Source of the DNA: Pedococcus aerophilus
GTDB taxonomy: Bacteria > Actinomycetota > Actinomycetes > Actinomycetales > Dermatophilaceae
Assembly (NCBI RefSeq): GCF_039532215.1
Contig: NZ_BAAARN010000001.1
Location: 1,907,942 to 1,971,941, forward strand
DNA length: 64,000 bases
Direction of reading: 5' to 3'
Part shown: positions 28,093 to 45,373 of the stretch, one piece after another
How the letters are laid out: every line of letters starts with the position of its first letter
Position numbering within the stretch: the stretch's first letter is position 1
Made by a program: the position numbers and the translations under genes
Notes under the pieces: model-generated
Told to the model about the DNA's origin: nothing
Database searches by the model: none
Seen by the model: the letters and a program-made list of their open reading frames with translations, nothing else

Positions 28093-28119
28093 GGTGCGTC
28101 CATCCTTGGGTCCAAACAC

Positions 28120-28140
28120 GCGCAACCATCCGTGGTGCGC
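28120..28140 (-). promoter_or_regulatory. Candidate CsrA-binding hairpin in flbD-motAB leader
   Basis: RNA hairpin of eight base pairs with one bulged U; the loop is CGGA closed by an A-U pair (CCA-CGGA-UGG at the top of the stem). It begins eight bases after the -10 box, so it would be the first structure on the transcript. A second GGA-rich stretch (AAGGAUGGA) lies before the start codon. Confidence 0.65.
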
Positions 28141-28147
28141 ACTTCTC

Positions 28148-28175
28148 TCATCGGCAACCCCGCGGCATACCTGAG
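28148..28175 (-). promoter_or_regulatory. Sigma-28-like promoter of flbD-motA-motB-fliL
   Basis: On the minus strand CTCAG at 28175-28171, N15, then GCCGATGA (28155-28148). The match to the fliC and flgB promoters is base-for-base in both boxes except for the final two bases. It drives the stator module from inside the gap behind flgE. Confidence 0.8.
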
Positions 28176-28247
28176 GTCTGTTCCCTCCCCGCTTTGTGCC
28201 AGTTCCGCGGCGGGTATGGCGCCGGGCACGGCGATGGGCACGGCGAT

Positions 28248-28284
28248 GGGTGGTGGGGCGCGGCTCTCCCGCACCCCACCACCC
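28248..28284 (-). terminator. Strong hairpin behind flgE
   Basis: A 16-base stem with one mismatch (arms 28248-28263 and 28269-28284) and a five-base loop, 25 bases after the flgE stop. A second small hairpin (CTGAGCC / GGCTCAG, 28295-28312) overlaps the flgE stop itself. No T-run, but position and stability suggest a terminator or an end-stabilising element separating flgE from the flbD unit. Confidence 0.7.
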
Positions 28285-28308
28285 GTGGGACCTCCTGAGC
28301 CGACCGGC

Positions 28309-29553
28309 TCAGCGCTTGAGGTTGACCAGGTCCTGGAGGATCTCGTCGGAGGCCGAGATCACGCGGGAGTTGGCCTGGAAGCCGCGCTGGGCGACGACGA
28401 GGTTGGTGAACTCCTGCGCGAGGTCGACGTTGCTCATCTCGAGGACACCGCTGTTGAGCAGGCCGCGGCCGCCGCTGCCGGCGATGCCCACCTGGGGCTG
28501 ACCGGAGTTGGCGCTGTTGCGGTACATCGAGTCGCCGGCCTTCTCGAGGCCACCGGGGTTGGCGAAGTTGGCGACGGCCACCTGGCCGAGCTTCTCCGTC
28601 AGGCCGTTGGAGAAGACACCGATGAGGACGCCGTTGGTGTCCATGGTGAAGCTCTGCAGCTGCCCCATGGTCGTGCCGTCCTGGGTGCGGGCGGCGGCCG
28701 AGCTCTGGCCGGCGTACTGCGTCAGCGGGGTCTGGTCGCCACCGATGGTCATGGTGACGTTGGCGCCGAAGGAGTACCCGGCCGTCCCCATCGCGGCGCT
28801 GCTCAGCGTCATCGTGTCGGTGTTGAACTTCTCCGTCGCCGGGTTCCACGTGAGGTTGGTCGTGCCGACGGTCACCGGCGAGCCGTTGCTGCCGGGGACG
28901 GTGGTCGTCGCGGTCCAGGCGTTGGCGGCGGTCTTGGTGTAGGTGGTCGTGGCCGGGACGGTCCGACCCTGGCCGTCGACGATGTCGATGCCGTGGGTGA
29001 CGGTGGCGCCGACCGCGGCGTCGGCCGGCAGGTTGCCGCCGAGGTCGATGTTCGCGGTCTCCTTCGGGGGGAGCACCTGGCCGAACGGCAGGCGCAGGCC
29101 CGTCGTGGAGGTGTTGGTGTCGATCCGGCCGTTGGCGGCGGGCCACCCCTGGACGGTCGCGCCCTCGGGCGTGGTCAGGTTGCCGAGGGCGTCGAAGGAG
29201 AACGCGCCGGCGCGGGTGTACATCGTCTGGCCGTCGCGCTGGACCACGAAGAAGCCGTCACCCTGGATGGCCATGTCGCCCTGGCGGCCGGTCACCTGGG
29301 TGCTGCCCTGGGTGAAGTTCGTCGTGATGCCGGCGACCTTGACGCCGAGGCCGACCTGCGCGGCGTTGGTGCCACCGCCGCCCTGGGCCGCGCCACCGGA
29401 GTTGCGGATGGCCTGGCTGAGGGTGTCCTCGAAGACGGTCTGGCTGGACTTGTAGCCCGTGGTGTTGACGTTGGCGATGTTGTTGCCGATGACGTCCATC
29501 ATCGTCTGGTGGCTGCGCAGACCGGAGACGGCGGAGAAGAGCGAGCGAAGCAT
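28309..29553 (-). CDS. flgE: Flagellar hook protein FlgE
   Basis: 414 residues. The N-terminal rod/hook signature MLRSLFSAVSGLRSHQTMMDVIGNNIANVNTTGYKSS and the C-terminal SNVDLAQEFTNLVVAQRGFQANSRVISASDEILQDLVNLKR form the D0 coiled-coil ends; the variable hook domains lie between. It follows flgD by 27 bases and is the last gene before a large gap. No separate flgF or flgG is present in the window, so whether another copy acts as distal rod is unknown. Confidence 0.95.
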   Translation of the reverse strand: MLRSLFSAVSGLRSHQTMMDVIGNNIANVNTTGYKSSQTVFEDTLSQAIRNSGGAAQGGGGTNAAQVGLGVKVAGITTNFTQGSTQVTGRQGDMAIQGDGFFVVQRDGQTMYTRAGAFSFDALGNLTTPEGATVQGWPAANGRIDTNTSTTGLRLPFGQVLPPKETANIDLGGNLPADAAVGATVTHGIDIVDGQGRTVPATTTYTKTAANAWTATTTVPGSNGSPVTVGTTNLTWNPATEKFNTDTMTLSSAAMGTAGYSFGANVTMTIGGDQTPLTQYAGQSSAAARTQDGTTMGQLQSFTMDTNGVLIGVFSNGLTEKLGQVAVANFANPGGLEKAGDSMYRNSANSGQPQVGIAGSGGRGLLNSGVLEMSNVDLAQEFTNLVVAQRGFQANSRVISASDEILQDLVNLKR

Positions 29554-29580
29554 GTTCAGTCCTTTGCGGGGTGTGAGGGG

Positions 29581-30051
29581 TTAGGACGCGGAGGGGGAGG
29601 TGGCGGTGCCGACCTCGGAGACGGTGCTGAGCGGCACCTCGGTGTCGTTCACGATGAGCTTCGGCCCGGCAGCGGTGAGCTTGACCGAGTCGACGGTGCC
29701 GCTGGCGGTGGAGCTGCCCACGGAGTAGGTGACGCGCTGGCCCACGAGGGTCAGGGCGTTGAGGCTGTTCTGTCCCGCGATCACCGCGGCGTTCTGCTCC
29801 ACCAGCTCGTGGAGGGTCTCGACCATCTGCATCTGCGCGGTCTGCGCCATGAAGGCAGCGCTGTCGACCGGCTTGCTCGGGTCCTGGTACTTCAGCTGCG
29901 CGACGAGGAGCTTGAGGAACGCGTCCCCGGTCATCTCGTTGCTCGCCGAGCTCGTGGAGGTCCCCTGCGTCGCACCAGCCGTGTTGGCCGCCGCCTGGGC
30001 GTTGAACGCCGCGGCGGTCGCCGCGGGGTTCGAACCGATCGGGATCGTCAT
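29581..30051 (-). CDS. flgD: Hook capping protein FlgD
   Basis: 156 residues, with the conserved FlgD N-domain (EMTGDAFLKLLVAQLKYQDPSKPVDSAAFMAQTAQMQMVETLHEL) and a short C-terminal part (VGQRVTYSVGSSTASGTVDSVKL). FlgD caps the growing hook. The ATG at 30051 lies eight bases after the fliK stop. It is shorter than enterobacterial FlgD, as is common in Gram-positives. Confidence 0.95.
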   Translation of the reverse strand: MTIPIGSNPAATAAAFNAQAAANTAGATQGTSTSSASNEMTGDAFLKLLVAQLKYQDPSKPVDSAAFMAQTAQMQMVETLHELVEQNAAVIAGQNSLNALTLVGQRVTYSVGSSTASGTVDSVKLTAAGPKLIVNDTEVPLSTVSEVGTATSPSAS

Positions 30052-30059
30052 GGACGGAC

Positions 30060-31718
30060 TCACATTCTGACGTCGAGGGCGACGTCGCTGGGCAGGGATC
30101 GGGAGGTGGGGTTCGGGGTGGCCGGACCGGTGTCGGCACCGCGGTGCCCCGGTATGGCGCCGTGCCCGGCTCGCGGTGCAGCTCCGCTCCCGGCGCCGGT
30201 ACCGGAACCGGCACCTGCTTGGCCGAACAGGTCGGGCGAACCGGACTGGACGTCCATGCCCGCCGTGCGCAGACCGGTCTGCTCCAGCTGGGCCCGGAGC
30301 TCGGGCAGGCCCTGGCGCAGGGTCTCGCGGGTGGCGGCGTCCGCGGCGACGAGGTGAAGGGCGACCTCTCCCCCGCTCAGGGTGAGCTGGACCCGGACCT
30401 TGCCGAGGTTCTCGGGCTCGAGGTGCACGGTGACCTGGTGGGTGCCGTCGGGCGCGGTGAACATCGGGGACATCGCGTTGAGGACCTGGGTCTGCGGGGG
30501 CAGCGGCACCACGGGGTTCGCGAGGGGGGCCGTCGTGACGGGGACCGCCGACGCCGTTCCCGTGGTGGGGGCTGTCGGCACCGTGGCAGCAGCGGCGAGG
30601 TCGACACCGGTGGGCACGGCGCTCGCCGGGGCGAGGACGGGGCTCGTCGCGACCGCCGTCACAGGGATGCTGCCGACGGTGGTCGCGTCCACGGACGTCG
30701 TGACCGCGGTGAGGCCGTCGGTGCCGGCCGGGGCGGTGGCGCCTGCGGCGTCGGTGCCGAGTCCGGCCCGCGCTCCCGCGCCGCCGAGGGCGGGCGGACG
30801 GCCATGGACGAGCGTGGGCACGAGCGCACCGTCGCCCTGGCCGCTGCCCGTCTGCCCGGCTCCGGTCCCGTCGGCGCCTGCCTGTCCCGAGCCCGCCGTG
30901 GCGGTAGGGGTGGTGGACGGGCCCGTGGTGGTGCCCTCGGTGGTCGGCTGGGAGGTGGACGTCGAGCTCGCGGCAGCCTGCCCGGCCGCCTGGCCGACGG
31001 CCTGCGTGCCGACGGCCGAGCCGGGGGCGCCGGACGTGCCGGCAGGGGTCGACACAGCGGTAGTGCCGACGGAGTCGGTGGGCGTAGCGGCCGCGTGGCC
31101 GACATCGGTCGCTGCCGAGCCCTCGGCCTGGGTGGCCGGCGCCACCACGGTGGCGGGGGCCGCCGACGCGGCGGTGACCGAGCCGGCGCTCGACGAGACG
31201 CCGTCGACACCGGGGGCAGCGGCACCGGAGCCACCTGCGGGCGAGGTCGTGGGACCGGCGGGCACCGCGCCGCTCGCAGCCGGAACGGTGGCCGCCGACG
31301 CGGCCGAGGACGCGACCTGGGCGGCGGGCTGCTGCACCGGCTGGGGCTCGCTGCCCGAGGACGGCTGCGACGCGGGAGCGACCTCGGTCGAGTCCTTCCC
31401 GGACGGACGGTCGGGACGCTCGAACACGGTGTCCACGACCGGGCGTTGGCTCCGCTCGCTCACCGCGGAGCGATCGCGGGGGTCCGCGGGGTCGCTGCGC
31501 TCGTGCACCTGGCGCTCGTGCACGGGGCGCTCGTGCACGGGGCGCTCGTGCACGGGGCGGGGGTGCGTCGAGCGGGTCTGGCCCGGGCGGCCGGAGTCGA
31601 GCTGGGAGCGGATGGCGACCTCGAAGCTCGCCCCGTCGTCCGAGGCGGCACTGCGCCCGCCGGGCTTCGCGGGGGCCACCGCGGCAGGTGCCGGGATGGT
31701 CACGTCGACGCGACTCAT
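30060..31718 (-). CDS. fliK: Flagellar hook-length control protein FliK
   Basis: 552 residues, mostly low-complexity Ala/Thr/Pro/Val ruler sequence, ending in a Flg_hook domain (about 435-505: QVTVHLEPENLGKVRVQLTLSGGEVALHLVAADAATRETLRQGLPELRAQLEQTGLR). A short HERPV repeat (four units, 15-base DNA period) lies near residue 55. It overlaps the upstream NlpC/P60-SLT gene by four bases. FliK measures hook length and triggers FlhB switching. Confidence 0.9.
   Translation of the reverse strand: MSRVDVTIPAPAAVAPAKPGGRSAASDDGASFEVAIRSQLDSGRPGQTRSTHPRPVHERPVHERPVHERQVHERSDPADPRDRSAVSERSQRPVVDTVFERPDRPSGKDSTEVAPASQPSSGSEPQPVQQPAAQVASSAASAATVPAASGAVPAGPTTSPAGGSGAAAPGVDGVSSSAGSVTAASAAPATVVAPATQAEGSAATDVGHAAATPTDSVGTTAVSTPAGTSGAPGSAVGTQAVGQAAGQAAASSTSTSQPTTEGTTTGPSTTPTATAGSGQAGADGTGAGQTGSGQGDGALVPTLVHGRPPALGGAGARAGLGTDAAGATAPAGTDGLTAVTTSVDATTVGSIPVTAVATSPVLAPASAVPTGVDLAAAATVPTAPTTGTASAVPVTTAPLANPVVPLPPQTQVLNAMSPMFTAPDGTHQVTVHLEPENLGKVRVQLTLSGGEVALHLVAADAATRETLRQGLPELRAQLEQTGLRTAGMDVQSGSPDLFGQAGAGSGTGAGSGAAPRAGHGAIPGHRGADTGPATPNPTSRSLPSDVALDVRM
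31500..31559. repeat. 15-base tandem repeat in fliK
   Basis: Four tandem copies of CTCGTGCACGGGGCG (the first with CTGG for GGGG), encoding HERPV/HERQV repeats on the minus strand. In-frame copy-number changes would alter FliK length by five residues. Confidence 0.9.
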
Positions 31719-32788
31719 GCCGCTCCTCCCATGTAGCCGATGACCTTCTGGACGTACTGCTGGGTCTCCCGGTAGGGCGGGACACCGCCGTAGCGCTGCA
31801 CCGCACCCGGGCCGGCGTTGTAGGCGGCGAGCGCCAGGGACGTCGAACCGAACCTGTCGAGGTGGCTGGCGAGCAGGCGGGCCGCACCGTCGATCGCCTG
31901 CGCCGGGTTGCGCGGGTCCACGCCGAGGCCGCGGGCGGTGGCCGGCATGATCTGCATGAGCCCGATGGCCCCGGCGTGGCTGACCGCGGAGGGGTTGAAG
32001 CCGCTCTCCGCCTTGGCGACCGAGGTGAGCAGGGCGACCGGGACGTCATACCGCTGCGCGGCACTGGCGAACAGGCTGCGGAACTGTGCGGGCACGTCGG
32101 AGGCCACACCACGCGTCGAGACGCCGGTCGCGGAAGACGCGGCGGAGGCAGCCGCCGAGGTCGTGAACGACTGCTCGGCGGGGGCGGCGATGCGACGGAT
32201 GGCCGTGGGGGTCTTGTAGACGTCCTGGATCTTGACGTCCTGGCCGGCCCGGGGGGCGACGAGCATCTTGTGGTCGCCCACGTAGATGCCGATGTGGTCC
32301 ACCGGGCTGCCGAAGGCGAGGAGGTCGCCCGGCTGGGCCTGGTCGAGGCTGGGGACCGCGGTGCCCATCCGCGCCTGGTCGGCGGCGACCCGCGGCAGGC
32401 GCACACCCACGTCGGCGAAGGCCCGCTGCACGAGGCCGGAGCAGTCCAGGCCCTTGGCCGGGTCGGTGCCGCCCCAGACGTAGGGGACGCCGAGGTACTT
32501 CTTGCCGGCCTCGACGGCGCGCGCGCCGACGTCACCGCTGGTGCTCGTGGTCGGGAAGCTCTGGACCCCCTGCGACTGAAGGGCTTTCGCCTGGTCCAGG
32601 ACGGTGCCCAGCACCTGGTCGAAGGACGCCGGGGCCGAGCCCGACGTGGTGGTCGCCGAGCTGGTCCCGGCTGCGGCGCTGGTGCTCGCCGCGCTCGAGG
32701 TGGAGGTGGGGGCCACGACGGTGAACCGGCTCTGGATGGCGGCGATGCGGGCGAGGGCGCCCGCGGGGCCGACGGTGTCGATGCTCAT
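31715..32788 (-). CDS. NlpC/P60 plus lytic transglycosylase fusion in flagellar operon
   Basis: 357 residues. After a Ser/Thr-rich start, an NlpC/P60 domain (about 88-190) has C116 in GLDCSGLV and H165 in DHIGIYVG; a goose-lysozyme-type SLT domain (about 232-357) has the catalytic E261 in AKAESGFNPSAVSHAGAIGLMQIMPATARGLG and AAYNAGPGAVQRYGGVPPY. No signal peptide is evident; export through the flagellar apparatus is possible. It overlaps both fliJ and fliK by four bases. It likely opens the wall for the rod, the role of FlgJ elsewhere; the two-activity combination in the basal-body operon is notable. Confidence 0.9.
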   Translation of the reverse strand: MSIDTVGPAGALARIAAIQSRFTVVAPTSTSSAASTSAAAGTSSATTTSGSAPASFDQVLGTVLDQAKALQSQGVQSFPTTSTSGDVGARAVEAGKKYLGVPYVWGGTDPAKGLDCSGLVQRAFADVGVRLPRVAADQARMGTAVPSLDQAQPGDLLAFGSPVDHIGIYVGDHKMLVAPRAGQDVKIQDVYKTPTAIRRIAAPAEQSFTTSAAASAASSATGVSTRGVASDVPAQFRSLFASAAQRYDVPVALLTSVAKAESGFNPSAVSHAGAIGLMQIMPATARGLGVDPRNPAQAIDGAARLLASHLDRFGSTSLALAAYNAGPGAVQRYGGVPPYRETQQYVQKVIGYMGGAA

Positions 32789-33213
32789 GCCAGCACCCGC
32801 TTCAGCGCGCCGGCGCTCTCCTCGGCAGCTCGCTGGTCGGAGGCGAGCAGCTCGCGCAGGGCGATGAAGTCCTCGCGCTCGACGAGGCGCTCGAGGCCCG
32901 ACGTGCGGGTCATCGCCTCGGTGAGCAGGGCACGGGCACGGTCGGACTCGCCCACGGCCATCTCGTGTCGGCTGCTGGTCACGGCGACCTGCTCGGCGCG
33001 ACCACTGGCGAGGGCGCGGGCGGCGACGAACGCCGCTGCACCGACCACCCGGGGGGACGCGTCGACGTCGGCGTACCGCTGGCGGGCGGCGTCCGCGTGG
33101 CCCTCGGCAACGGCGGCGTCGGCGAGCGCCCGGGCGAGGTCCGCCTGACGGCGCTCCTCCTGGATCTTTCGCACCTTCAGCACGACGGCAAGGCGGTCAC
33201 GGCGGGCACTCAC
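32785..33213 (-). CDS. fliJ: Flagellar protein FliJ
   Basis: 142 residues from the GTG at 33213, overlapping the fliI stop as GTGA. The sequence is charged and almost entirely helical (VRKIQEERRQADLARALADAAVAEGHADAARQRYADV), with coiled-coil character expected for FliJ, the stalk of the FliI ATPase. Low sequence conservation of the family means the call rests mainly on position between fliI and the muramidase gene. Confidence 0.8.
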   Translation of the reverse strand: MSARRDRLAVVLKVRKIQEERRQADLARALADAAVAEGHADAARQRYADVDASPRVVGAAAFVAARALASGRAEQVAVTSSRHEMAVGESDRARALLTEAMTRTSGLERLVEREDFIALRELLASDQRAAEESAGALKRVLA

Positions 33214-34508
33214 AGCGCACCTGCCAGCTGGTGCAGGGCCGACCAGCTCTGGCCGAGGTCGGCGATGTCGTCGAGGTCCTGGCGCAGGAACAGGTCGATC
33301 GGGGCCGAGAACTGCAGGGCACGGTCGACCAGCGGGTTGCTCCCGGCGACGTAGGCACCGATCTCGACGAGGTCCTTGGCGTCGCGGCGGGCTGCGAGCA
33401 GCTGGCGCAGCGAGGAGACCGCGGCGCGCTGCGGGCCGTCGGTGAGGGCGCGGGTGGTGCGCGACACGGACTCGAGCACGTCGATGCAGGGGAAGTGGCC
33501 CGAGGTCGCGAGGCGGCGGTCGAGGACGATGTGGCCGTCGAGGATGGAGCGGACCGAGTCGGCGACCGGGTCGTTCATGTCGTCGCCCTCGACGAGGACG
33601 GTGTAGAGGCCCGTGATGCTGCCCGTGTGCGAGGTGCCCGCACGCTCGAGCAGGCGCGGCAGCAGCCCGAACACCGACGGCGGGTAGCCCCGGGTGGCCG
33701 GCGGCTCGCCGGCCGCGAGGCCGACCTCGCGCTGGGCCATGGCGACACGGGTGACGCTGTCCATGCAGAGCAGGACGTCCTGGCCCTGGTCGCGGAACCA
33801 CTCGGCGATGCGGGTGGCGGTGAAGGCCGCGTGGAGGCGCACGAGCGCGGGCTCGTCGGAGGTCGCCACGACGACGACCGCGCGGGCCAGGCCCTCGGGT
33901 CCGAGGTCGTGCTCGACGAACTCGCGGACCTCACGGCCCCGCTCGCCGACCAGGGCCAGCACGCAGACCGGGGCCTCGGTGCCGCGGACCATCATCGAGA
34001 GCAGGCTCGACTTGCCGACGCCGGAGCCGGCGAAGATGCCCATGCGCTGCCCGCGCCCGCAGGGCACGAGGGTGTCGATGGCGCGGATGCCGAGGCCGAG
34101 CTGGGTGTCGATCCGGTCGCGGGTCATCGCCGGCGGCGGCGTGCCGTCGGAGGTCTCCCACGTCACGTCGGTGAGCTCGGGGCCACCGTCGATCGGGCGA
34201 CCGAGCGCGTCCACGACCCGACCGATGAGCCCGGCGCCGACAGGGACCCGCAGGGGGCCACCGGTCGAGGCGACGACCGCACCGCGGCGCACACCGCGCA
34301 GGTCGGAGACGGGCAGGCAGCGGGCGGCGTCGCCGTCGAGGGCGACGACCTCGGCGAGGATCGGTCCCTGGTCGCCCATGACCTCGACGGCCTCGCCGAC
34401 TGCGACGTCGAGGCCGGAGACCTCGATGCCGACACCGAGGGCGCGGGTGACGCGGCCGGTGACGCGCGGGCGGGCCGCGCGCAGGATGTCGTGGAGCACG
34501 GCGGTCAT
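33210..34508 (-). CDS. fliI: Flagellum-specific ATPase FliI
   Basis: 432 residues. Walker A is GSGVGKSS (161-168). Also visible are ALVGERGREVREFVEHDLG, Walker B VLLCMDSVTRVAMAQREVGLAAGEPPATRGYPPSVF, and the ITGLYTVLVEGDDMNDPVADSVRSILDGHIVLDR segment shared with F1-beta. FliI energises export substrate release with FliH and FliJ. The start at 34508 overlaps the fliH stop by four bases. Confidence 0.97.
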   Translation of the reverse strand: MTAVLHDILRAARPRVTGRVTRALGVGIEVSGLDVAVGEAVEVMGDQGPILAEVVALDGDAARCLPVSDLRGVRRGAVVASTGGPLRVPVGAGLIGRVVDALGRPIDGGPELTDVTWETSDGTPPPAMTRDRIDTQLGLGIRAIDTLVPCGRGQRMGIFAGSGVGKSSLLSMMVRGTEAPVCVLALVGERGREVREFVEHDLGPEGLARAVVVVATSDEPALVRLHAAFTATRIAEWFRDQGQDVLLCMDSVTRVAMAQREVGLAAGEPPATRGYPPSVFGLLPRLLERAGTSHTGSITGLYTVLVEGDDMNDPVADSVRSILDGHIVLDRRLATSGHFPCIDVLESVSRTTRALTDGPQRAAVSSLRQLLAARRDAKDLVEIGAYVAGSNPLVDRALQFSAPIDLFLRQDLDDIADLGQSWSALHQLAGAL

Positions 34509-35176
34509 CGCGACAGCACCTCGCGGACGCGGACGAGCGCGGCGCCGATCTGGGCGTCGATCGTGCGGTCGCCGATGTCGACGACGCAGCCGCCGCGCTC
34601 GACGGTGGGGTCGGGGACGACCTGCACGGCGCAGCCGGGGGCGAGGTCGGCGATGGACTCGGGGGTGAGGTGGGTGTCGCCCGGGTTCAGGTGGACGGTG
34701 ACGTCCGAGCCGCGGGGGATGTCGGTGAGTGCGCGCTCGACCGCGTCGCGGGCGGCGCAGTCGTCGACGAGCAGGTGGTGGCCGACGAGGGCCTCGGCGA
34801 TCTCCACGGCCATGGGCACCGCGGCGGCACACAGGTCGCGCACCGTCGCGGACGCGGCGGCGTCAGCGACGGCGGCACGCAGCGACTCCAGGGTCGCGGC
34901 GAACTGCAGCCGGCGCTCGGCAGCCTCGGCCTCCTCGCGCTCCTGGGCCGCATGGAGCCAGGCCTCCTGCTCGCGGACGGCCTGGCGCACGCCCTCCTCG
35001 TAGCCGGCCTCGCGGCCCTCCTCGAACTGGCGGGCCGTCTCGGACAGGGCCCCGGAGCCGAGGACGGCGCTGGAGCGGGTGAACTGACGGGAGGTGAACA
35101 GGGCCGGCCGGACAGCGGTTGTGGCGGCACTGCGCAGCAGCACGGTCGAGGGGCGCAGGTCAGAGGACGAGGTCAT
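34505..35176 (-). CDS. fliH: Flagellar assembly protein FliH
   Basis: 223 residues. A helical charged middle (EGREAGYEEGVRQAVREQEAWLHAAQEREEAEAAERR) precedes the FliH/HrpE-type C-terminal domain (DVTVHLNPGDTHLTPESIADLAPGCAVQVVPDPTVERGGCVVDIGDRTIDAQIGAALVRVREVL). It binds and regulates FliI. Start at ATG 35176 overlaps the fliG end by 17 bases. Confidence 0.92.
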   Translation of the reverse strand: MTSSSDLRPSTVLLRSAATTAVRPALFTSRQFTRSSAVLGSGALSETARQFEEGREAGYEEGVRQAVREQEAWLHAAQEREEAEAAERRLQFAATLESLRAAVADAAASATVRDLCAAAVPMAVEIAEALVGHHLLVDDCAARDAVERALTDIPRGSDVTVHLNPGDTHLTPESIADLAPGCAVQVVPDPTVERGGCVVDIGDRTIDAQIGAALVRVREVLSR

Positions 35177-37768: not shown

Positions 37769-38061
37769 ATCGGCATCCTCATGATCTCGGTGAACGCCTC
37801 GACGGCCTTGTTGCGCACGGCGACGGTCAGCTGGGTGGCGACGGCCGCTTCATTCGCGGCGATCGTGTACTGGTGCACGTCCTGGAGCTGACCGGTGACC
37901 GCCTGGACGGCCATCTTGTCGCTCGTCTGGTGCAGGGAGTTGAGCTTCTCGATGCCCTGCTCGAGGGCGTTGCTGAACCCGGCGGGGTTCGCGGCAGCCG
38001 TCGGCGCGGTCGCGGTGACCGGCGGCAGGCTGCCGATCGCGGAGATGGGAGGGATGACCAT
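37765..38061 (-). CDS. fliE: Hook-basal-body protein FliE
   Basis: 98 residues: FSNALEQGIEKLNSLHQTSDKMAVQAVTGQLQDVHQYTIAANEAAVATQLTVAVRNKAVEAFTEIMRMPM is the FliE signature, including the typical EIMRMP(M/V) end. FliE joins the MS ring to the rod. It starts two bases after flgC. Confidence 0.95.
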   Translation of the reverse strand: MVIPPISAIGSLPPVTATAPTAAANPAGFSNALEQGIEKLNSLHQTSDKMAVQAVTGQLQDVHQYTIAANEAAVATQLTVAVRNKAVEAFTEIMRMPM

Positions 38062-38063
38062 GG

Positions 38064-38462
38064 TCAGCGGCCCAGCCCGATGGCCTGCTGGTACGCCGCC
38101 TGCGCCCGCTCGACCACGGCGAGGTTCGCCTGGTAGCCGCGCTGGGCCATCATCAGCTGGGTCATCTGGTCGCCCATGTCGATGTCGGGGAGACGGATGT
38201 AGCCCTCGGCGTCGGCCAGGGGGTGGTCGGGCTGGAAGACCATGCGGCCCTCGGCGTCACCGAACTGCACGCCGGCGACCCGGACACCCTCGGGCTTGCC
38301 GTACTCGCCGGCCTCCGCCACGACGTACCGCGCCTGGAAGGCGTTCTCGTTGGACGGGCGGACCGTGTTGATGTTGGCGATGTTGTCGGAGACGGCGTCC
38401 ATCCACTTGCGGTGCAGGACCAGACCCGAGCCGGCGATGTTCATCGCCCCGAAGATGCCCAT
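38064..38462 (-). CDS. flgC: Proximal rod protein FlgC
   Basis: 132 residues with the rod N-terminus (MNIAGSGLVLHRKWMDAVSDNIANINTVRPSNENAFQARYVV) and C-terminal helix (PDIDMGDQMTQLMMAQRGYQANLAVVERAQAAYQQAIGLGR). Start shares one base with the flgB stop. Confidence 0.95.
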   Translation of the reverse strand: MGIFGAMNIAGSGLVLHRKWMDAVSDNIANINTVRPSNENAFQARYVVAEAGEYGKPEGVRVAGVQFGDAEGRMVFQPDHPLADAEGYIRLPDIDMGDQMTQLMMAQRGYQANLAVVERAQAAYQQAIGLGR

Positions 38463-38818
38463 CAGGCGCTGCCGAGCGCGATGCGCATCCGCTGGAAGTG
38501 GTCGGTCATGGCCTGGACGCCGAGCTGGTAGGTCAGCCCGGTCTCAGCGCCGGCGAGGGTCTCCTCGTCGAGGTTGACGTTGTTGCCGTTCTCGCGGGTG
38601 GGCTCGAGGGAGCGCTGCGCGGTCGGGGTGGCCACCGAGGGGTCCTGCCCGTTGCCGAGGGCGGCGATGAGGCTGCTCTCGAAGTCGACCTTGCCGGCGA
38701 GGAAGCGGGGGGTGTCGACGTTGGCGATGTTGTCAGCGATGGTGCGCTGCCGCAGGGACAGACCATTGAGCGCCTGCCCGAGGGCACGCATCGTGGTGTC
38801 GCCGATCGGGTCGATCAT
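38462..38818 (-). CDS. flgB: Proximal rod protein FlgB
   Basis: 118 residues from the ATG at 38818, which follows AGGAGAG at good spacing; an open frame continues upstream but crosses the leader hairpin region. It shows the FlgB pattern (ALNGLSLRQRTIADNIANVDTPRFLAGKVDFESSL and TYQLGVQAMTDHFQRMRIALGSA). It is the first gene of a basal-body operon running through about 20 genes to 17792. Confidence 0.94.
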   Translation of the reverse strand: MIDPIGDTTMRALGQALNGLSLRQRTIADNIANVDTPRFLAGKVDFESSLIAALGNGQDPSVATPTAQRSLEPTRENGNNVNLDEETLAGAETGLTYQLGVQAMTDHFQRMRIALGSA

Positions 38819-38901
38819 GGCTCTCCTGGATGGCAGGTCAGCGCGCGTGGGGGCGCGTGACAAGGACACGTCGTGGTGGTGCCACACGTCCTTGGCGGCG
38901 A

Positions 38902-38917
38902 TGGCCATCCATGGCCA
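38902..38917 (-). promoter_or_regulatory. Candidate CsrA-binding hairpin in flgB leader
   Basis: RNA hairpin UGGCCA-UGGA-UGGCCA: six base pairs with a UGGA loop closed by A-U, starting seven bases after the -10 box, so at or very near the 5' end of the mRNA. Core CAUGGAUGG parallels CACGGAUG in the fliC and flbD leaders. Confidence 0.62.
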
Positions 38918-38923
38918 GTCCCC

Positions 38924-38951
38924 ACATCGGCATCGCCCTCACCGACCTGAG
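38924..38951 (-). promoter_or_regulatory. Sigma-28-like promoter of the flgB basal-body operon
   Basis: On the minus strand CTCAGG (38951-38946), then GCCGATGT (38931-38924), giving TCAG-N15-GCCGAT. The leader to the flgB ATG is about 100 bases. Confidence 0.78.
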
Positions 38952-39143
38952 CGCGAAACGCCGTGGGGGCCGAAGATCAACCGTTCGGGCCATCCCCGAC
39001 GAGCCAGCCGGGGGAAGTCGGCGCAAACGGTGCCATCAGGAGGGCACCGCACGGTATGGCGCCATGCACCGTCCAGTCGCGACCGCCGGACCGCACGGCG
39101 CAGCCGCGAGCCGCGAGGTGCGGGTGCCCAAGGGTGCCGTGGA

Positions 39144-39159
39144 CGGGGCAGCAGCCCCG
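39144..39159 (-). terminator. Hairpin behind flgL
   Basis: CGGGGC-AGCA-GCCCCG, perfect six-base stem, starting 10 bases after the flgL stop. A second foldable stretch, arms ACGGTATGGC and GCCAT-gc-ACCGT, lies at 39051-39072. Candidate end of the flgL transcript. Confidence 0.55.
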
Positions 39160-39169
39160 CGCCATACGG

Positions 39170-40078
39170 TCAGCGCAGGAAGTCCATCAGCGACGGCTGC
39201 ACGACCTTGGCCGCGGCACCGAGCGCTGCCTGGTACGCGGTCTGCTGGAGGGTGAGGTCGGTGATCGTCTTGGCGAGGTCGATGCCCTCGACGGAGGCGA
39301 GCTTGGCGGCGACGGCGTCGGCACGCACCTCGCCACCGGCCTGCGTGGCCAGGAGGCGGTTGGTCCGCGCACCGACCGTCGTCTGGGTCGAGCGCACGGC
39401 CTCGGAGGCGCGGTCGAGCTGGGTGAGCGAGGTGCCGAGGGCGCTGAGGTCACCGCTGCGCAGGGCGCTGCTGATCCGGGCGAGCAGTCCCTGGCCCGAG
39501 GGGGCGGCCGGGTCGGCCAGGAGCGTCGTGAAGGCCTGGTCGCCCGTGACGCTGACGGCGAGCGTGCCCGAGGCGGCGTCCGGGGAGACCGTGCGCTTCA
39601 CCGTCTGGGTGTTGCCCGCGTAGGCGCCGGTCGTCGGGTCGAAGGCCACGGCGGTGTCCTGGGTGCCGGCGAAGACCGGGCGACCGAGGTACTGCGTGTT
39701 CGCGATCCCGAGGACGGCCTCGCGGAGCTGGTCGACCTCTGCGGCCATGGCGCGCCTCTCCTCTGGTCCGTTGGTGCTGTTGGCGCCGGCGAGCACCAGG
39801 GTGCGGACCCGGTTGAGGACCGTGCTCGTCTGGCTCAGGGCCTGGTCGCTGGTGTTGAGCCAGGCCATGCCGTCGTCGATGTTCCGCGAGAGCTGGTCGG
39901 CCTGCTTGCGCTCCGCGCGGAGCTGCATCGCGGCCACGGTGTCCACGGGCGAGTCCGAGGGCCGGCTGAGGCGGCGACCGGAGGAGAGCTGCTCCTGGGT
40001 CTGCTGCAGCCGGCTCAGGCTGCTCTGCAGCCCGGCCATCACACCACTGTTCAACGTGGCGGGGGTGACGCGGGTCAT
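39170..40078 (-). CDS. flgL: Hook-filament junction protein FlgL
   Basis: 302 residues with flagellin-like ends: SSLSRLQQTQEQLSSGRRLSRPSDSPVDTVAAMQLRAERKQADQLSRNIDDGMAWLNTSDQALSQ at the N-terminus and VEGIDLAKTITDLTLQQTAYQAALGAAAKVVQPSLMDFLR at the C-terminus. FlgL links hook to filament after FlgK. A 112-base gap separates it from flgK, and a weak sigma-28-like promoter overlaps the flgK stop. Confidence 0.95.
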   Translation of the reverse strand: MTRVTPATLNSGVMAGLQSSLSRLQQTQEQLSSGRRLSRPSDSPVDTVAAMQLRAERKQADQLSRNIDDGMAWLNTSDQALSQTSTVLNRVRTLVLAGANSTNGPEERRAMAAEVDQLREAVLGIANTQYLGRPVFAGTQDTAVAFDPTTGAYAGNTQTVKRTVSPDAASGTLAVSVTGDQAFTTLLADPAAPSGQGLLARISSALRSGDLSALGTSLTQLDRASEAVRSTQTTVGARTNRLLATQAGGEVRADAVAAKLASVEGIDLAKTITDLTLQQTAYQAALGAAAKVVQPSLMDFLR

Positions 40079-40183
40079 CTCGGGCTCCGGTGCTCGTGGT
40101 CGTCGGCGGCGGCCGTGGTCGGACGGGTGGTCAGGTGCCGGTCGCGAGGTGCGAGCGGCGAAGGTGCGGTGCTGTCAATAGCC

Positions 40184-40211
40184 CTATCGGTCAGCGGGCC
40201 ATGTTCATGAG
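40184..40211 (-). promoter_or_regulatory. Weaker sigma-28-like promoter before flgL
   Basis: On the minus strand CTCA (40211-40208) and ACCGATAG (40191-40184) with the same 16-base distance as the strong promoters. The boxes deviate at two or three positions, and the -35 lies inside the flgK 3' end. Confidence 0.5.
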
Positions 40212-41558
40212 GGAATCCATCGTGCTGTCGATGACGCTGACGAAGCGGGCGGCCGCCTCGTAGGCGTGCTGGTAGGACATGAGGTTGGTCATCTCCTCGT
40301 CGAGGCTGACGCTGGAGACACCGAGGCGGGCCGAGTCGACCTGGCGGAGCATGACTCCTTGGACGTCGGCCTGGCGGCTCGCGCTCTGCGACTGCACGCC
40401 GAGCTCGACGATGAGGTTGCGGTAGCTCGCGTCCGGGCCTGCCTTGTCGGTGAGGTGCGCCGCCATGGCGGACGCGTTGTCACCGTCGTAGGCCGGGGGC
40501 GGCGACTTCGAGGCGGCGATGCCGTTGGTGCCCGTGAGCGAGACCGCGAGGGTGGCAGCGGTGGTGCCGCTGAAGAACGGTTTCCCGGCAGCACCGGTGC
40601 GGTCGTAGCCCGCTGCCTGCTGGGCGTTCACCGTGCTCGCGAGCTTGGCGGCGATCGCGTCGAGCGAGGCCGTGTAGCCCGGGATCGTCGTGTTGAGCGC
40701 CGTGGTCATGCCGTGGACCTCGCCACCGCTGACCGAGGCCGGCGTGCCGCTGCTCGCCCAGGTCACGGTGACCGGTGCGCTGCCCCCGGGGACGGTCGGG
40801 CCGCCGACGCGCAGCTCGCTGGTGCGCGAGCCGCTCACGAGCTGGGTGCCGCCCACGGTGACCGTCACGGTGCCGTCGTCGTTCAACCGACCGACGGCGC
40901 CGACGCTCTCGCCGAGCTGCAGGACGAGCTGGTCGCGCTGGTCGGACAGCTCGCTGGTGGAGGCACCGGAGACCTTGGCGCTGCGGATCGCGTCGTTGAG
41001 GCGGGCCACGTCGGTCGCCGTGCGGTTCACCTCGGACACGGTGGCGACGAGCGCCTCACGCGTGCCGGACCACTGCTGGCCGAGCTGCTGGCTGGTGCGC
41101 TGGAACGAGGCCGCGAGCTGGGCGGACTCCTCGAGGAGCTGGGTTCGTGGTGCGGTGCTCGTCGGGTCGTTCGCCACGTCGGACCACGAGCTCCAGAACG
41201 ACGCCATCTGCGCCTGGAGGCCGGTGTCGCTGGGCTCGCCGAAGATGCCCTCGACCGAGCGCAGGGTCGCCGCGGCGGAGGTCAGCGTCGAGGCGCTGCC
41301 CCGTACCTGCTGCGCACGAGCCTCGAGGAACTCGTCGCGGATGCGCTCGGTGCCGCGCACCAGCACGCCGTCGCCGTAGGCCTGGGACTGCGACCACATC
41401 GCGGGGACGGCAGAACCTCCCGCAGCGACCTGGTCGAGCCGCTGGCGGGAGTAGCCGGGGGTGTTGATGTTGCTGATGTTCTGGCCGGAGAGCTCGAGAC
41501 CGCGCTGGGCGGCCTGGAGGGCACGGGCTCCGAGGCCCAGACTGGAGAAGCCGGACAT
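40191..41558 (-). CDS. flgK: Hook-filament junction protein FlgK
   Basis: 455 residues with the FlgK N-terminus (SSLGLGARALQAAQRGLELSGQNISNINTPGYSRQRLDQV) and C-terminus (VSLDEEMTNLMSYQHAYEAAARFVSVIDSTMDSLMNMAR). The start at ATG 41558 shares one base with the stop of the small upstream gene. The longer upstream frame is rejected because it runs antiparallel through that gene. Confidence 0.95.
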   Translation of the reverse strand: MSGFSSLGLGARALQAAQRGLELSGQNISNINTPGYSRQRLDQVAAGGSAVPAMWSQSQAYGDGVLVRGTERIRDEFLEARAQQVRGSASTLTSAAATLRSVEGIFGEPSDTGLQAQMASFWSSWSDVANDPTSTAPRTQLLEESAQLAASFQRTSQQLGQQWSGTREALVATVSEVNRTATDVARLNDAIRSAKVSGASTSELSDQRDQLVLQLGESVGAVGRLNDDGTVTVTVGGTQLVSGSRTSELRVGGPTVPGGSAPVTVTWASSGTPASVSGGEVHGMTTALNTTIPGYTASLDAIAAKLASTVNAQQAAGYDRTGAAGKPFFSGTTAATLAVSLTGTNGIAASKSPPPAYDGDNASAMAAHLTDKAGPDASYRNLIVELGVQSQSASRQADVQGVMLRQVDSARLGVSSVSLDEEMTNLMSYQHAYEAAARFVSVIDSTMDSLMNMAR

Positions 41559-41905
41559 CAGGCCCTCGCATCCACGTAGGCCGGCTGCCACTGGCGTCGG
41601 ACAGGACGCTCGGCACGCTCGGGGCGGTCGGTTCGCTCGGCGAGCTCGGAGGCGGCGAGCTCGAGGTCGCGGCGGGTCGTGGCCAGCGCCTCGACGACGC
41701 GGGTGGTCAGGGCCGCCATGCGGTCCTGCAGGTTCCTGGCCCGGTCGGCGAGCTCGGGCGGCAGGGCACCGCCGACGACGGGCACCGGGATCGCCCGGAA
41801 CTCCTCGACGCGACCCTGCTCGACGAGGCGCTCGCCCTCGGTGACGGCGGTCTCGAGCTGGGCGAGGACCACCACCCACCGCACGGCCCAGGAGTCGGCA
41901 CTCAT
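41558..41905 (-). CDS. Small helical protein, possible flagellar chaperone (FliT/FlgN-like)
   Basis: 115 residues, helical and charged (WVVVLAQLETAVTEGERLVEQGRVEEF, then NLQDRMAALTTRVVEALATTRRDLELAASELAER), ending in a basic segment. It overlaps fliS by four bases and touches flgK, the normal place for an export chaperone. No firm family match by eye; FliT-like or FlgN-like are both possible. Confidence 0.6.
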   Translation of the reverse strand: MSADSWAVRWVVVLAQLETAVTEGERLVEQGRVEEFRAIPVPVVGGALPPELADRARNLQDRMAALTTRVVEALATTRRDLELAASELAERTDRPERAERPVRRQWQPAYVDARA

Positions 41906-42285
41906 GACAGGTCCGGCGCCAGGGCTGCCTCGGCGAACGCGTCGCGCAGCGGCTCGACGATCTCGAGGGCCTCGGCCACCAGGGACGCGTCCTTGCTGAC
42001 GTTGGCCTGCACGAGGCGCTCGGTGAGGTAGTCGTAGAGGGCCTTGAGCTGGGCGCCCTCGGGCCACATGCTCAGGTCGAGCGAGCTGGACAGCTCGGTC
42101 ACGATGTCCTGGGCGTGCAGCAGGTTGCGGTGCGCCACCTCGACGTCACCCTGGCTCACGGCACCGAACGCGGTGTTGAGGTCCTTGAGCAGGCGGTCGT
42201 AGAGCATGACGACGAGCCGGTTGGGGGAAGCGGTGGTGACTGCGTCGCCGTTGTAGCGCCGCCGCAGCATCGCGGAAGTGGTCAC
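41902..42285 (-). CDS. fliS: Flagellin export chaperone FliS
   Basis: 127 residues with the FliS pattern: AVTTASPNRLVVMLYDRLLKDLNTAFGAVSQGDVEVAHRNLLHAQDIVTELSSSLDLSMWPEGAQLKALYDYLTERLVQAN. It binds FliC to prevent early polymerisation, and in B. subtilis also interacts with FliW. It follows fliD by 12 bases. Confidence 0.94.
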   Translation of the reverse strand: MTTSAMLRRRYNGDAVTTASPNRLVVMLYDRLLKDLNTAFGAVSQGDVEVAHRNLLHAQDIVTELSSSLDLSMWPEGAQLKALYDYLTERLVQANVSKDASLVAEALEIVEPLRDAFAEAALAPDLS

Positions 42286-42297
42286 GGTAGGGATCTC

Positions 42298-44175
42298 CTA
42301 GTTCTTTCCACTGTTGATGGTCGGCAGCGCCGCCAGCTGGCCGGAGAGCCACTCGCCCTGCGCCTTGAGGCTGCCGAGCATGGTCTCGAGCGCGGAGTAC
42401 TGGCGCTGCAGGGTCTGTTGCCGAAGGGTCATGCGGTTCTCGAAGCTGGCGATGCGGTCGGTGTAGTCCTTGACCTTGTCCTGCTCGAGCTTGATCTGGC
42501 CGGTGACGTAGCCGTCGGTGGGGTCGGCGGCCGCCTTGGCCGTGTCGCCCAGACGAGTGGCCATCCCGGTCATGGTCTTCTCCACCGCTGCGGGGTCCTT
42601 CATATAGGCCGCCAGGAAGACGGCCTTGTCGAACGAGATCTTGCCGTCACGACCGACCTGGACCCCGGCCTTCGCCGGCAGATCCGTCGACGTGCCGATG
42701 ACGGAGTCGGCGAGGCGCCGCACGAGGTCTCGCGGCATGGAGTCCCCCAGGAGGACTCCGGCAGTCTTGGTGTCGGCGTTGTAGGCGGACTTGTCGGCGA
42801 TGTAACCCAGCGCGGCGTTCGCCGCGGTCACCAAGGCGTCCATCTTGGTGGCGATGCCCTCGGCATCCGAGGTGACGGTCACCGTGACCGGTGTGGTCGG
42901 ATCTGCCTTGGCCGCCGTGATCGTCACTCCCGGGAGAAGCCCCGAGACGGCGGTCGTGGACGACGTGACGTCGAAGGCGCCAGGTCCGGTGCCGACACGC
43001 AGGAGCGTGTCGGCACCGGCCTGGAGCTCGACGGTGCCGCCGAGGCCCGAGAGTCCGGGGGGAAAGGCCCCCTGGCCGAGCGACACGTCGGAGCTGGACC
43101 CCGTCGACATGGAGGTGAGCTGGAGGCGGTAGGCGTTGGCCGAGACCTGCACCGCTGTCGCCCGCACGCCCGCGCCCGCCCCGTTGATCGAGGAGACGAC
43201 CTGGGCCAGCGACGACCCGGCGCCCACCTCCACCACGGTGGCGGTGGCCGCCCCCGCCCGCAGACCGCCGGAGAGGGTGAAGACCAGGCTGTCGCCGTTC
43301 GCACCGGGGAGGGTGACCTGGTTGCCGCGCGTCAGGCTCGCGACCGTGGTGGCCACCCCGTCGAGGCTCACGACCGCGTCGGTGCCCGCGGCCGTCGTGC
43401 CGGTGTCGGAGAGACCGAGCGCGGTGTTGGCCGCCGTGAGGCGCAGGGTGGCGGCCGAACCCTCCCGGGTCGTCGCCAGGCGCAGGGCACCGTCGGGACC
43501 GGCGGAGGCGGTCAGGGTCCCGCCCGAGGCGCGGCCGACCTCGGCCGCGAGCTGGTCACGCGTGTAGGTGCCCTGTGTCAGCGTGATGGACGTGGGGGTG
43601 CCGTCCACCTCGACCGAGAGGGTGGCCGACCCGGCGTCGACCGTGATGCTGTTGCCGAGCGGTGCCCCCGTGAGGGACGCACCGGCCGAGGACTGCGTGA
43701 CCGCCAGGGTGTGCGCGCCCTTGGCGAGCTGGGGACCGGAGGCGATCGACGCCATACCGAGGGCCGCGGTGCCCTTGCCGAGCAGGAGGGGGCCGTCGGT
43801 CACTGCGGTGGTCAGCGAACCGACCGAGCCGCTGGTGACGGACGCGCCGGCGGTGGCGACGCTGCGCACCGTGAAGGTGGCGGTGCCGGGCAGCGCGTTC
43901 GGGCCGACCGAGGTGGTGGCCAGGCCCGGGAGCGAGGAGGTCGCGGTGGCCGAGGTCCACGCCGACGCCTTGGTGATGGTGTCGGGGATGAACACCTTTA
44001 CCGCGGCCTGGAGGCCGGTCAGGGTGGCATTCAGTCCCTGGAGCACGGCCGCCATGGTCTGGCTCTCGCTCTTGCCCTTGAGCAGCGGGTTGCCCGAGAG
44101 GCGCTCCACCGCCATCAGCTGGGTGATGATCTGGGTCGTGTTCAGTCCGGAGACGAGTCCGTCGATCGAGGCCAC
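42298..44175 (-). CDS. fliD: Filament cap protein FliD
   Basis: 625 residues. The FliD_N domain (VSGLNTTQIITQLMAVERLSGNPLLKGKSESQTMAAVLQGLNATLTGLQAAV) and C-domain (SFENRMTLRQQTLQRQYSALETMLGSLKAQGEWLSGQLAAL) are clear, with a long variable Ser/Thr/Gly-rich middle. Length is on the high side. The stop of fliC lies 85 bases upstream behind a strong terminator-like hairpin, so fliD may depend on read-through or a promoter I did not find. Confidence 0.93.
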   Translation of the reverse strand: MASIDGLVSGLNTTQIITQLMAVERLSGNPLLKGKSESQTMAAVLQGLNATLTGLQAAVKVFIPDTITKASAWTSATATSSLPGLATTSVGPNALPGTATFTVRSVATAGASVTSGSVGSLTTAVTDGPLLLGKGTAALGMASIASGPQLAKGAHTLAVTQSSAGASLTGAPLGNSITVDAGSATLSVEVDGTPTSITLTQGTYTRDQLAAEVGRASGGTLTASAGPDGALRLATTREGSAATLRLTAANTALGLSDTGTTAAGTDAVVSLDGVATTVASLTRGNQVTLPGANGDSLVFTLSGGLRAGAATATVVEVGAGSSLAQVVSSINGAGAGVRATAVQVSANAYRLQLTSMSTGSSSDVSLGQGAFPPGLSGLGGTVELQAGADTLLRVGTGPGAFDVTSSTTAVSGLLPGVTITAAKADPTTPVTVTVTSDAEGIATKMDALVTAANAALGYIADKSAYNADTKTAGVLLGDSMPRDLVRRLADSVIGTSTDLPAKAGVQVGRDGKISFDKAVFLAAYMKDPAAVEKTMTGMATRLGDTAKAAADPTDGYVTGQIKLEQDKVKDYTDRIASFENRMTLRQQTLQRQYSALETMLGSLKAQGEWLSGQLAALPTINSGKN

Positions 44176-44215
44176 GGCTGCGCCTCCTTCCTATCGCCAG
44201 TAGCGCTGGTACGTG

Positions 44216-44249
44216 GGCCCGGAGCCGAGGTCTCCCCCGGCTCCGGGCC
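44216..44249 (-). terminator. Hairpin behind fliC
   Basis: Perfect 12-base arms GGCCCGGAGCCG and CGGCTCCGGGCC with a 10-base loop, starting 11 bases after the flagellin stop. Likely terminator or 3' end stabiliser setting high fliC over fliD expression. Confidence 0.7.
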
Positions 44250-44260
44250 ACGTCACGGAC

Positions 44261-45319
44261 TCAGCCGAGCAGCTTGAGGACGGACTGCGGAGCGGAGTTC
44301 GCCTGGGCGAGCATCGAGACGCCGGCCTGCTGCAGGATCTGCGACCGGGTGAAGGACGTCATCTCCTTGGCCATGTCGGTGTCGCGGATGCGGGACTCGG
44401 CAGCCGAAGCGTTCTCAGCGGCGACGCTGAGGCTGTTGATCGTGTGCTGCAGACGGTTCTGGATCGCACCGAGGTCGGCGCGCTGGCCGGAGACCGTGGT
44501 GATCGCGGCGTCGATCGTGCTCAGCGCCGTGTTCGCACCAGACTGGGTCGTGACGTCGATCGCGGAGGTGACGGAGAACGATCCCGTGCTTCCACTGAGC
44601 ACCGTCTTGTCGAACGTGACGACCGCACCGCCGTTGGCAGCCGAGAACGTCGCGGTCTTGGCGGTGTTGTCGTACACACCGACGGCGTTGCCTGCGGTGT
44701 CCAGCACCTTGTTGGAGCTGTCGACGGTGAACTGACCCTTGACGGCGGTGCCACCGGAGATGGTGCCCACCGCGCCCGTGACCGAGCTCGCCTTGTCAGC
44801 ACCGGACAGGCTCAGCGAGGCCGTGCTGGTCCCGGAGATGGTGACTGACAGGTTCTGACCGGAGTTGGCTCCGAGCTGGAGGCTCTTGCCGGTGAACGAT
44901 CCGTCGAGCAGGTTCTGGCCGTTGAACTGCGTGCGCTCGGAGATCTTGTTGAGCTCCGCGCTGAGCTGCGTGACCTCCTTCTGGATGGCCTCGCGGTCCG
45001 AGACGCTGTTCGTGTCGTTGGCGGACTGGACAGCGAGGGTGCGCATGCGCTGCAGGATGGAGTGCGTCTCGTTGAGGGCACCTTCAGCGGTCTGGATGAG
45101 GCTGATGCCGTCCTGCGCGTTGGACACAGCCTGGTTGAGACCGTTGGACTGGGCGCGCAGCTTCTCGCTGATCGCCAGGCCGGCGGCGTCGTCCGCAGCC
45201 TTGTTGATGCGCAGGCCGGAGGACAGGCGCTCGAGGCTGGTGGACATCGCGTTCTGGGTGGAGCTGAGGTTCCGGTAGGCGTTCATGGCCGAAACGTTGG
45301 TGTTGATCTGAAGACCCAT
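44261..45319 (-). CDS. fliC: Flagellin
   Basis: 352 residues. Conserved D0/D1 ends: [55 protein letters not shown] and the C-terminal [43 protein letters not shown], with [16 protein letters not shown] in D1. The variable surface region (about 175-265) is short. The start follows AGGAAGAGGAAACC. Only one flagellin gene is in the window. Its leader has a sigma-28-like promoter and a CsrA-type hairpin. Confidence 0.97.
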
Positions 45320-45348
45320 GATGGTTTCCTCTTCCTTGAATGGGGTCG

Positions 45349-45373
45349 CGGGCCGTCATCCGTGACGAGCCCG
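45349..45373 (-). promoter_or_regulatory. Candidate CsrA-binding hairpin in flagellin leader
   Basis: RNA hairpin of ten base pairs with one bulged U; the upper stem is CGUCA/UGACG and the loop CGGA, closed by A-U. Two further GGA sites lie in the ribosome-binding stretch AAGGAAGAGGAAA. One upstream hairpin plus one site over the ribosome-binding region is the arrangement known for CsrA on B. subtilis hag. Confidence 0.7.

Follow-up and report, generated by a model that had tools for sequence, protein, structure and literature searches.

The 64-kb window analysed here, which has 71.6% guanine plus cytosine (GC) and belongs to the 4.02-Mb genome of Pedococcus aerophilus, holds a flagellar gene cluster in which the leaders of fliC, flgB and flbD each carry a hairpin that we predict to be a binding site for CsrA, the product of an adjacent gene. 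The cluster runs on the minus strand in the order fliA, fliC, fliD, fliS, flgK, flgL, then flgB-flgC-fliE-fliF-fliG, and continues after fliG to flgE, flbD, motA, motB, fliM, flhB and flhA; on the plus strand, flgN, fliW and csrA lie beside it, so that the hairpins do adjoin a csrA-fliW locus, as an earlier note on this DNA had stated. The flagellin gene fliC (44261-45319, minus strand; Pfam Flagellin_N and Flagellin_C), the rod gene flgB (38462-38818, minus strand; Pfam Flg_bb_rod) and flbD, or swrD (27841-28092, minus strand; Pfam FlbD), are our main subjects, with motA (27066-27839) and then motB (ending at 26158) 3' of flbD on the same strand. The names motA, motB, flgE, fliM, flhB and flhA are our presumptive assignments, made without a family search and, for motA and motB, from sequence and gene order.

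All three hairpins lie on the minus strand where the earlier note had placed them. The fliC leader holds a CsrA-type hairpin at 45350-45372 (GGGC-U-CGUCA/CGGA/UGACG-GCCC, loop ACGGAU), the flgB leader holds its hairpin 1 at 38902-38917 (UGGCCA/UGGA/UGGCCA, loop AUGGAU), and the flbD leader a CsrA-type hairpin at 28120-28140 (GCGCACCA/CGGA/UGG-U-UGCGC, loop ACGGAU); the single bulged U reported for two of the stems is real in both fliC and flbD. From the ANGGA word to the start codon it is 44 nucleotides (nt) in fliC, 94 nt in flgB and 41 nt in flbD. Each leader also holds a second GGA. In fliC and flbD it is a CAAGGA at the Shine-Dalgarno sequence (45333-45338 and 28103-28108, both minus strand), 26 nt from the hairpin GGA in either case; in flgB it lies in a second element (CAAGGACG, 38881-38899, minus strand), 19 nt from the first GGA. 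These distances fall within the 10-63 nt over which a CsrA dimer bridges two sites, with an optimum above 18 nt (PMC7652899).

The published consensus for CsrA is a GGA hairpin loop, best ANGGAN closed by C-G (PMC4894983, PMC7652899), and the leader hairpins conform to it (CANGGANG). The loop had been described as NGGA closed by an A-U pair; the GGA loop holds good but the A-U closure does not, since in relatives GGA can be followed by any of U, C, A and G. Judged from the aligned leaders, the conserved form is an ANGGAN hexaloop closed by C-G, which is the classic form of a CsrA/RsmE ligand, and the A-U pair is incidental. At the gathering score the sole Rfam match in the window was a tRNA, and the leader hairpins match no family.

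GGA hairpins might simply be frequent in GC-rich DNA, and the window indeed has similar ones at 26727, inside motB, and at 10972. Among the 26 ANGGAT words on both strands of the window, four are flanked by at least five uninterrupted pairs, namely these two and those of fliC and flgB; the flbD hairpin has 10 pairs when counted across its bulge. Under a broader rule, which accepts the hexaloop CANGGANG or a 7-nt loop, the background was 0.15 hairpins per kb in a total of 5.05 Mb, which comprises both strands of every locus scanned and counts in the leaders and any overlapping stretches; about 0.06 hairpins are therefore expected in three 135-nt leaders, where three are seen. The motB-internal CGGA hairpin at 26727 (minus strand; 12 pairs, one bulge) was considered as a conserved site and rejected, since none was found inside motB in the other genomes listed.

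Conservation was followed through the flagellar loci of family relatives and of a class sample, together with named contigs from a scan for FliF. Identical leaders were counted once, and matches were left out if they started after query residue 30 or 40 (in two counts) or had too little upstream DNA; G010, G097, G098, G161 and G070 gave only short contigs around csrA, and G024 and G071 were covered by their first locus only. As a control we used the same hairpin with a permuted loop (GAG or AGG for GGA). In leaders that come almost exclusively from Actinomycetota, the GGA hairpin was found in 54 of 67 for fliC, 80 of 102 for flgB and 37 of 66 for flbD, versus 10, 3 and 2 with a permuted loop; by a looser rule, 91 of the 102 flgB leaders have it against 8.0 expected from shuffles. 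The stems differ and the motif recurs (for example GAGCCACGGATGGCTC, GGCCCACGGACGGGCC and GATCGCCCATGGAAGGGCGATC). Counted by genome, the hairpin is present at fliC in 39/47 genomes and 10/13 GTDB families, at flgB in 68/76 genomes and 14/18 families, and at flbD in 33/53 genomes and 9/12 families, as opposed to permuted loops in only 6, 5 and 5 genomes. Set beside the background of 0.15 per kb, such counts make an origin by chance scarcely credible. In 35 genomes all three leaders were readable; 18 of these have all three hairpins and 30 have those of fliC and flgB.

Most other flagellar leaders are near background under the same rule: fliA 2/61, flgN 0/58, fliW 0/47, csrA 3/34, fliD 0/45, fliS 3/72, flgK 0/10, flgC 0/102 (control 7), fliE 0/100, fliF 0/100, fliG 1/99, motA 0/63, motB 3/63, fliM 1/46, flhA 1/15, flhB 0/13 and fliP 0/1. 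For flgL the hairpin was counted in 19 of 64 leaders (control 9), but this gene was rejected as a target, nearly all of these being fliC leaders reached at 26-34% identity. At flgE it occurs in 8 of 86 leaders and with a permuted loop in none of the 86, and the pattern suggests that flgE may be a further CsrA target in some lineages (for example in G340, G438 and G556). A separate look covered 24 flgB leaders supplied by the FliF scan. Twenty of these belong to other or unassigned phyla, in genomes of different base composition, and none has an ANGGA hairpin of at least four pairs; of the four actinobacterial ones, a Solirubrobacteraceae leader (L316) has the pair, an Acidimicrobiaceae leader (L291) has one hairpin, a metagenome-assembled genome (L285) has only a match at the start codon, and L284 has none. 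The hairpin was also found in two fliC leaders of Clostridioides/Metaclostridioides mangenotii, as expected from the precedent of hag. One further fliC leader (L226, genome G215) has two strong consecutive GGA hairpins.

The stems of fliC and flbD have changed in a compensatory manner. The fliC alignment has 58 distinct rows from 67 leaders and the flbD alignment 34 rows from 66, leaders with no site, another loop length or fewer than two pairs and identical ones being left out. In fliC, 84.3% of cells are paired and 114 cells show changes in both partners, compared with 41.2 ± 5.0 when shuffled; the corresponding values for flbD are 80.1% and 56 cells, compared with 25.3 ± 3.6, and in neither case did any of 500 shuffles reach the observed count. 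When the partner columns were slid, paired cells dropped to 30-53% in fliC and 25-47% in flbD. The flgB alignment (51 of 69 tandem rows, after removal by hand of the own genus, of duplicates and near-duplicates, and of a few odd rows) is of another kind, with the GAGC/GCTC arms of hairpin 1 nearly invariant outside the family, across many families, and with hairpin 2 occurring in one register with a C-G pair around a 7-nt loop and in another with a G-C pair around a 6-nt loop. These invariant arms, and the narrow spacing of the flgB hairpin, which in 48 of the 53 leaders whose promoter is recognisable begins 6-10 nt beyond the -10 element, are what one would expect if the inverted repeats were DNA operators of a transcription factor just 3' of the promoters. 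In fliC and flbD, however, the arms vary with compensation and the loop alone is fixed, which is the reverse of an operator, and bulges and register shifts are tolerated. As the loop A and GGA stay constant and the stem letters vary, recognition of an RNA loop fits better, and we regard operators as very improbable. The earlier note had been ready to give up its idea if the hairpins were lost among close relatives with the promoters kept; instead, they are retained across many genera and families, with stems that change by compensation around a fixed loop.

Models trained on other genera recovered two of the three leaders in the window. Model R1, built from the flgB pairs of other genera with the own genus excluded, placed the flgB leader (hairpin 1 and the second element) at the top with 25.5 bits and an expectation value (E) of 0.0016, the next match scoring 15.7 bits. 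Model R2 was built from 59 of 92 distinct fliC and flbD rows, with the own genus and weakly paired, odd and near-duplicate rows excluded by hand; its top match was the fliC hairpin (20.9 bits, E 0.012). In fourth place (16.1 bits, E 0.19) came the hairpin of flgB, a gene unused in training. A genome-wide search for a tandem GGA pattern gave 21 matches including these three leaders, versus 2 for the control, and counts for little because the pattern was designed after the three leaders had been seen.

The leaders fall into two layouts. A CANGGA lies within the last 26 nt of 41/67 fliC and 24/66 flbD leaders, as compared with 3/102 for flgB, 0/64 for fliA, 5/34 for csrA and 0/8 for flgK, and the next GGA follows 20-30 nt beyond the hairpin GGA at 37/65 fliC and 27/33 flbD sites. 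At flgB the next GGA comes 19-25 nt on at 67/82 sites, and a second ANGGA 17-27 nt on at 69/82, with a stem of at least four pairs in 53 of these. This layout does not fit simple blocking of the Shine-Dalgarno sequence, its two GGA elements, which are about 22 nt apart, being far from that sequence and near the predicted 5' end. The transcript starts, on which a comparison with the two 5'-end CsrA sites of flhDC depends, are predicted. Measured from the -10 element, the hairpin begins 5-15 nt downstream in 27/29 flbD and 27/40 fliC leaders, the window's own fliC having a longer interval of about 34 nt. A position close to the 5' end is therefore not confined to flgB, which is distinguished instead by its second hairpin and by having no site at the Shine-Dalgarno sequence. 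Folding gave a median unpaired fraction of the Shine-Dalgarno sequence of 0.46 for fliC, 0.55 for flbD and 0.34 for flgB, which does not decide the sign of regulation.

Stable stems protect mRNAs in general, and it could be argued that CsrA sites exist only in fliC and that the hairpins of flgB and flbD are CsrA-independent 5' stems that stabilise their transcripts against RNases, in keeping with their position 5-15 nt after the -10 element in 48/53 and 27/29 leaders. The 27 of 40 fliC hairpins that share this position argue against such a division, as does the rarity of permuted loops (3/102 flgB and 2/66 flbD leaders), since a pure stabiliser needs no GGA loop; nor would it have any use for the second GGA of the 67 flgB leaders. 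We therefore consider stabilising stems unlikely.

Each of the three hairpins lies 3' of a perfect promoter-like site of the form CTCAGG-N14-GCCGAT, predicted on the minus strand at 45407-45432 (fliC), 38926-38951 (flgB) and 28150-28175 (flbD). The relaxed form CTCA-N14-18-GCCGAW has 74 matches in the genome and the exact form only five, all on the minus strand of the window among the flagellar genes. These promoter-like sites are putatively of the FliA type. The remaining two exact sites precede fliM (25453-25478, minus strand, a few bases 5' of the likely GTG) and flhA (20221-20246, minus strand, about 55 nt 5' of the ATG). With its site almost at the likely GTG, the fliM mRNA may be leaderless. 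A scan of the window found no ANGGAT hairpin 3' of either site, so that the hairpin is present at three of the four sites whose leader extends to about 50 nt or more. A 15-codon open reading frame (20162-20209, minus strand, start ATGACAGCAGCT) overlaps the flhA start (..CGATGAAG) and could possibly encode a coupled leader peptide.

The products of fliW (47189-47620, plus strand; Pfam FliW, 4.2e-23; best PDB match 5dmb_A, FliW) and of csrA (47678-48016, plus strand, GTG start; Pfam CsrA, 4e-25; best PDB matches 5dmb_D and 1t3o_A) are, by these matches, ordinary members of their families; 5dmb is presumably the CsrA-FliW complex. Apart from the csrA at 47678, the genome has no CsrA match. In this group csrA is tied to the flagellum, being almost confined to flagellated genomes: among 186 genomes of the family csrA was found in 30, fliF in 29 and both in 28, and among 394 genomes of the class sample in 56, 51 and 49, respectively. 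Genomes with fliF only are incomplete (G071 83%, G208 80%, G549 63%). Those of the class sample with csrA and no fliF match (G193, G288, G422, G484, G530, G533 and G545) may have lost their flagella, have them unassembled, or use CsrA outside the flagellum.

A hairpin GGCCC-AGGAA-GGGCC (47645-47660, plus strand) lies directly 5' of the csrA Shine-Dalgarno sequence and is a weak R2 match (E 0.88). Autoregulation of csrA through it was rejected for the genus, as G142, G145 and G147 keep a stem and the loop GGA is not kept. In G099, G169 and G170 a CACGGACG hairpin lies about 60-83 nt 5' of csrA (3 of 34 csrA leaders), which suggests autoregulation in these genomes. On the 3' side of csrA (about 48000-48700, plus strand), GCGCCATACCTCC stretches recur by eye as imperfect repeats.

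Taken together, the presence of the hairpins, their conservation, the compensatory stems of fliC and flbD, the fixed loop, the spacing and the linkage to csrA and fliW lead us to read the three hairpins as predicted binding sites of the CsrA encoded beside them, with a probability of roughly 0.87. These sequences are most likely accounted for by a CsrA-FliW system that is tied to the flagellum and has three targets or more, and CsrA-FliW probably controls basal-body and motor genes besides flagellin in this group. The broader switch proposed in the earlier note, covering the basal-body and stator operons, gains from the conserved hairpins and is restricted by the missing flbD hairpin in some families. 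We infer CsrA binding, the link to FliW, the transcript starts and the sign of regulation at each leader.

Several points weigh against this reading. The support consists of sequence comparison, and the near-perfect co-occurrence of csrA and fliF leaves no good csrA-less flagellated control: no flagellated genome reliably lacking csrA, the key natural control, appeared among the family and class samples. Any Shine-Dalgarno sequence is expected to give a GGA near the start codon. Alignment rows were picked by longest stem, which biases them towards pairing, and the flgB pair covaries less strongly, its 32 cells comparing with 14.5 ± 3.5 for shuffles, which have as many pair types. Outside the family the flgB loop mostly has 7 nt, and RsmE can bind less tightly when a loop carries additional nucleotides (PMC7652899). 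The hairpin is absent at flbD in all seven genomes of one family (f4), at fliC in f38, f48 and f40, and at flgB in f3, f43, f40 and f25 (1-2 genomes in each of the latter families). R2 missed the window's own flbD hairpin among its 11 window matches (E of at most 1), probably because of the bulge. Run on the whole genome, R1 gave no match below E 0.4 and missed the flgB site, after an initial pass in which 150 of 6492 candidates were scored; having missed a known site, the run is uninformative on other targets. Lastly, no ANGGAT hairpin accompanies the flhA promoter-like site, although its leader measures about 55 nt. Together with the 5'-end position of many fliC and flbD hairpins, this counts slightly against both the reading as CsrA sites and the two-way switch discussed below.

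In the proposed mechanism, a CsrA dimer would grip the hairpin GGA of fliC or flbD-motAB with one face and the Shine-Dalgarno CANGGA 26 nt downstream with the other, and thereby block ribosome binding, in the manner of hag in B. subtilis and glgC in E. coli. FliW would withdraw CsrA during flagellin export, so that flagellin and stator synthesis would track export. The parts of such a flagellin checkpoint are found here, with csrA and fliW present and a fliC leader that has a Shine-Dalgarno site and an upstream site, and by homology FliW would bind both CsrA and flagellin. The hag mRNA of B. subtilis has two leader sites through which CsrA acts as a repressor, an effect that FliW relieves (PMC6070490, PMC7652899). 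As in the published accounts of hag, csrA and fliW are found here with flagellar genes and the flagellin leader has upstream and Shine-Dalgarno GGA sites; unlike in B. subtilis, the two-site layout recurs at flbD-motAB, and flgB carries a GGA pair near the predicted 5' end.

A regulon broader than the hag of Bacillus, as the earlier note claimed, is supported here; it is not new in itself, as CsrA of C. jejuni binds many flagellar mRNAs, with FliW as its main antagonist (PMC4894983). There, the flaA leader has two GGA hexaloops 21 nt apart, and flgI and flgH were enriched more than 100-fold and flgB 1.6-fold (first column, 7 reads) (PMC4894983). The leaders tested in C. jejuni include flaA, flaG, flaB and flgI, whereas the candidates here are fliC, flgB and flbD. 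Within the Actinomycetota, the csrA of Kineococcus radiotolerans lies in a flagellar island and flagellin was proposed as its target in 2008 (PMC2587704); that proposal, in the accessible part of the paper, was a match to the hag Shine-Dalgarno site, without a hairpin or a flgB or flbD site. CsrA and FliW were also among the genes searched in a phylum-wide study of actinobacterial flagella (PMC10746217). In the open literature, as represented by titles and abstract openings, no CsrA site at an actinobacterial flgB or flbD was found.

The flgB pair departs furthest from the Bacillus model, and it decides between CsrA as a brake only and CsrA as a two-way switch. Its layout, two GGA elements near the predicted 5' end and far from the Shine-Dalgarno sequence, resembles that described for E. 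coli flhDC, which CsrA activates (Yakhnin 2013, as described in PMC7652899). Unlike flhDC, the operon here is that of flgB itself and no master regulator, and protection from RNase is hypothetical. One may speculate that free CsrA blocks fliC and flbD-motAB at the Shine-Dalgarno sequence and at the same time protects or activates the flgB operon through the paired GGA elements, and that removal of CsrA by FliW at the onset of export reverses this pattern. Because flgB, fliC and flbD share one promoter form in the genome, the order of assembly would then be set on the mRNA, and CsrA-FliW of flagellated Actinomycetota would be a two-way assembly switch standing in for transcriptional tiers. We put this forward tentatively and consider it doubtful at present.

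The analysis provides comparative evidence for a multi-gene CsrA regulon in Actinomycetota, for which we found no counterpart in the open literature, and it delineates, in the flgB leader, a conserved element of two GGA sites without an Rfam match in the window. The ordering of flagellar assembly in these bacteria thereby becomes open to a direct test that involves three short RNAs and a single small protein.

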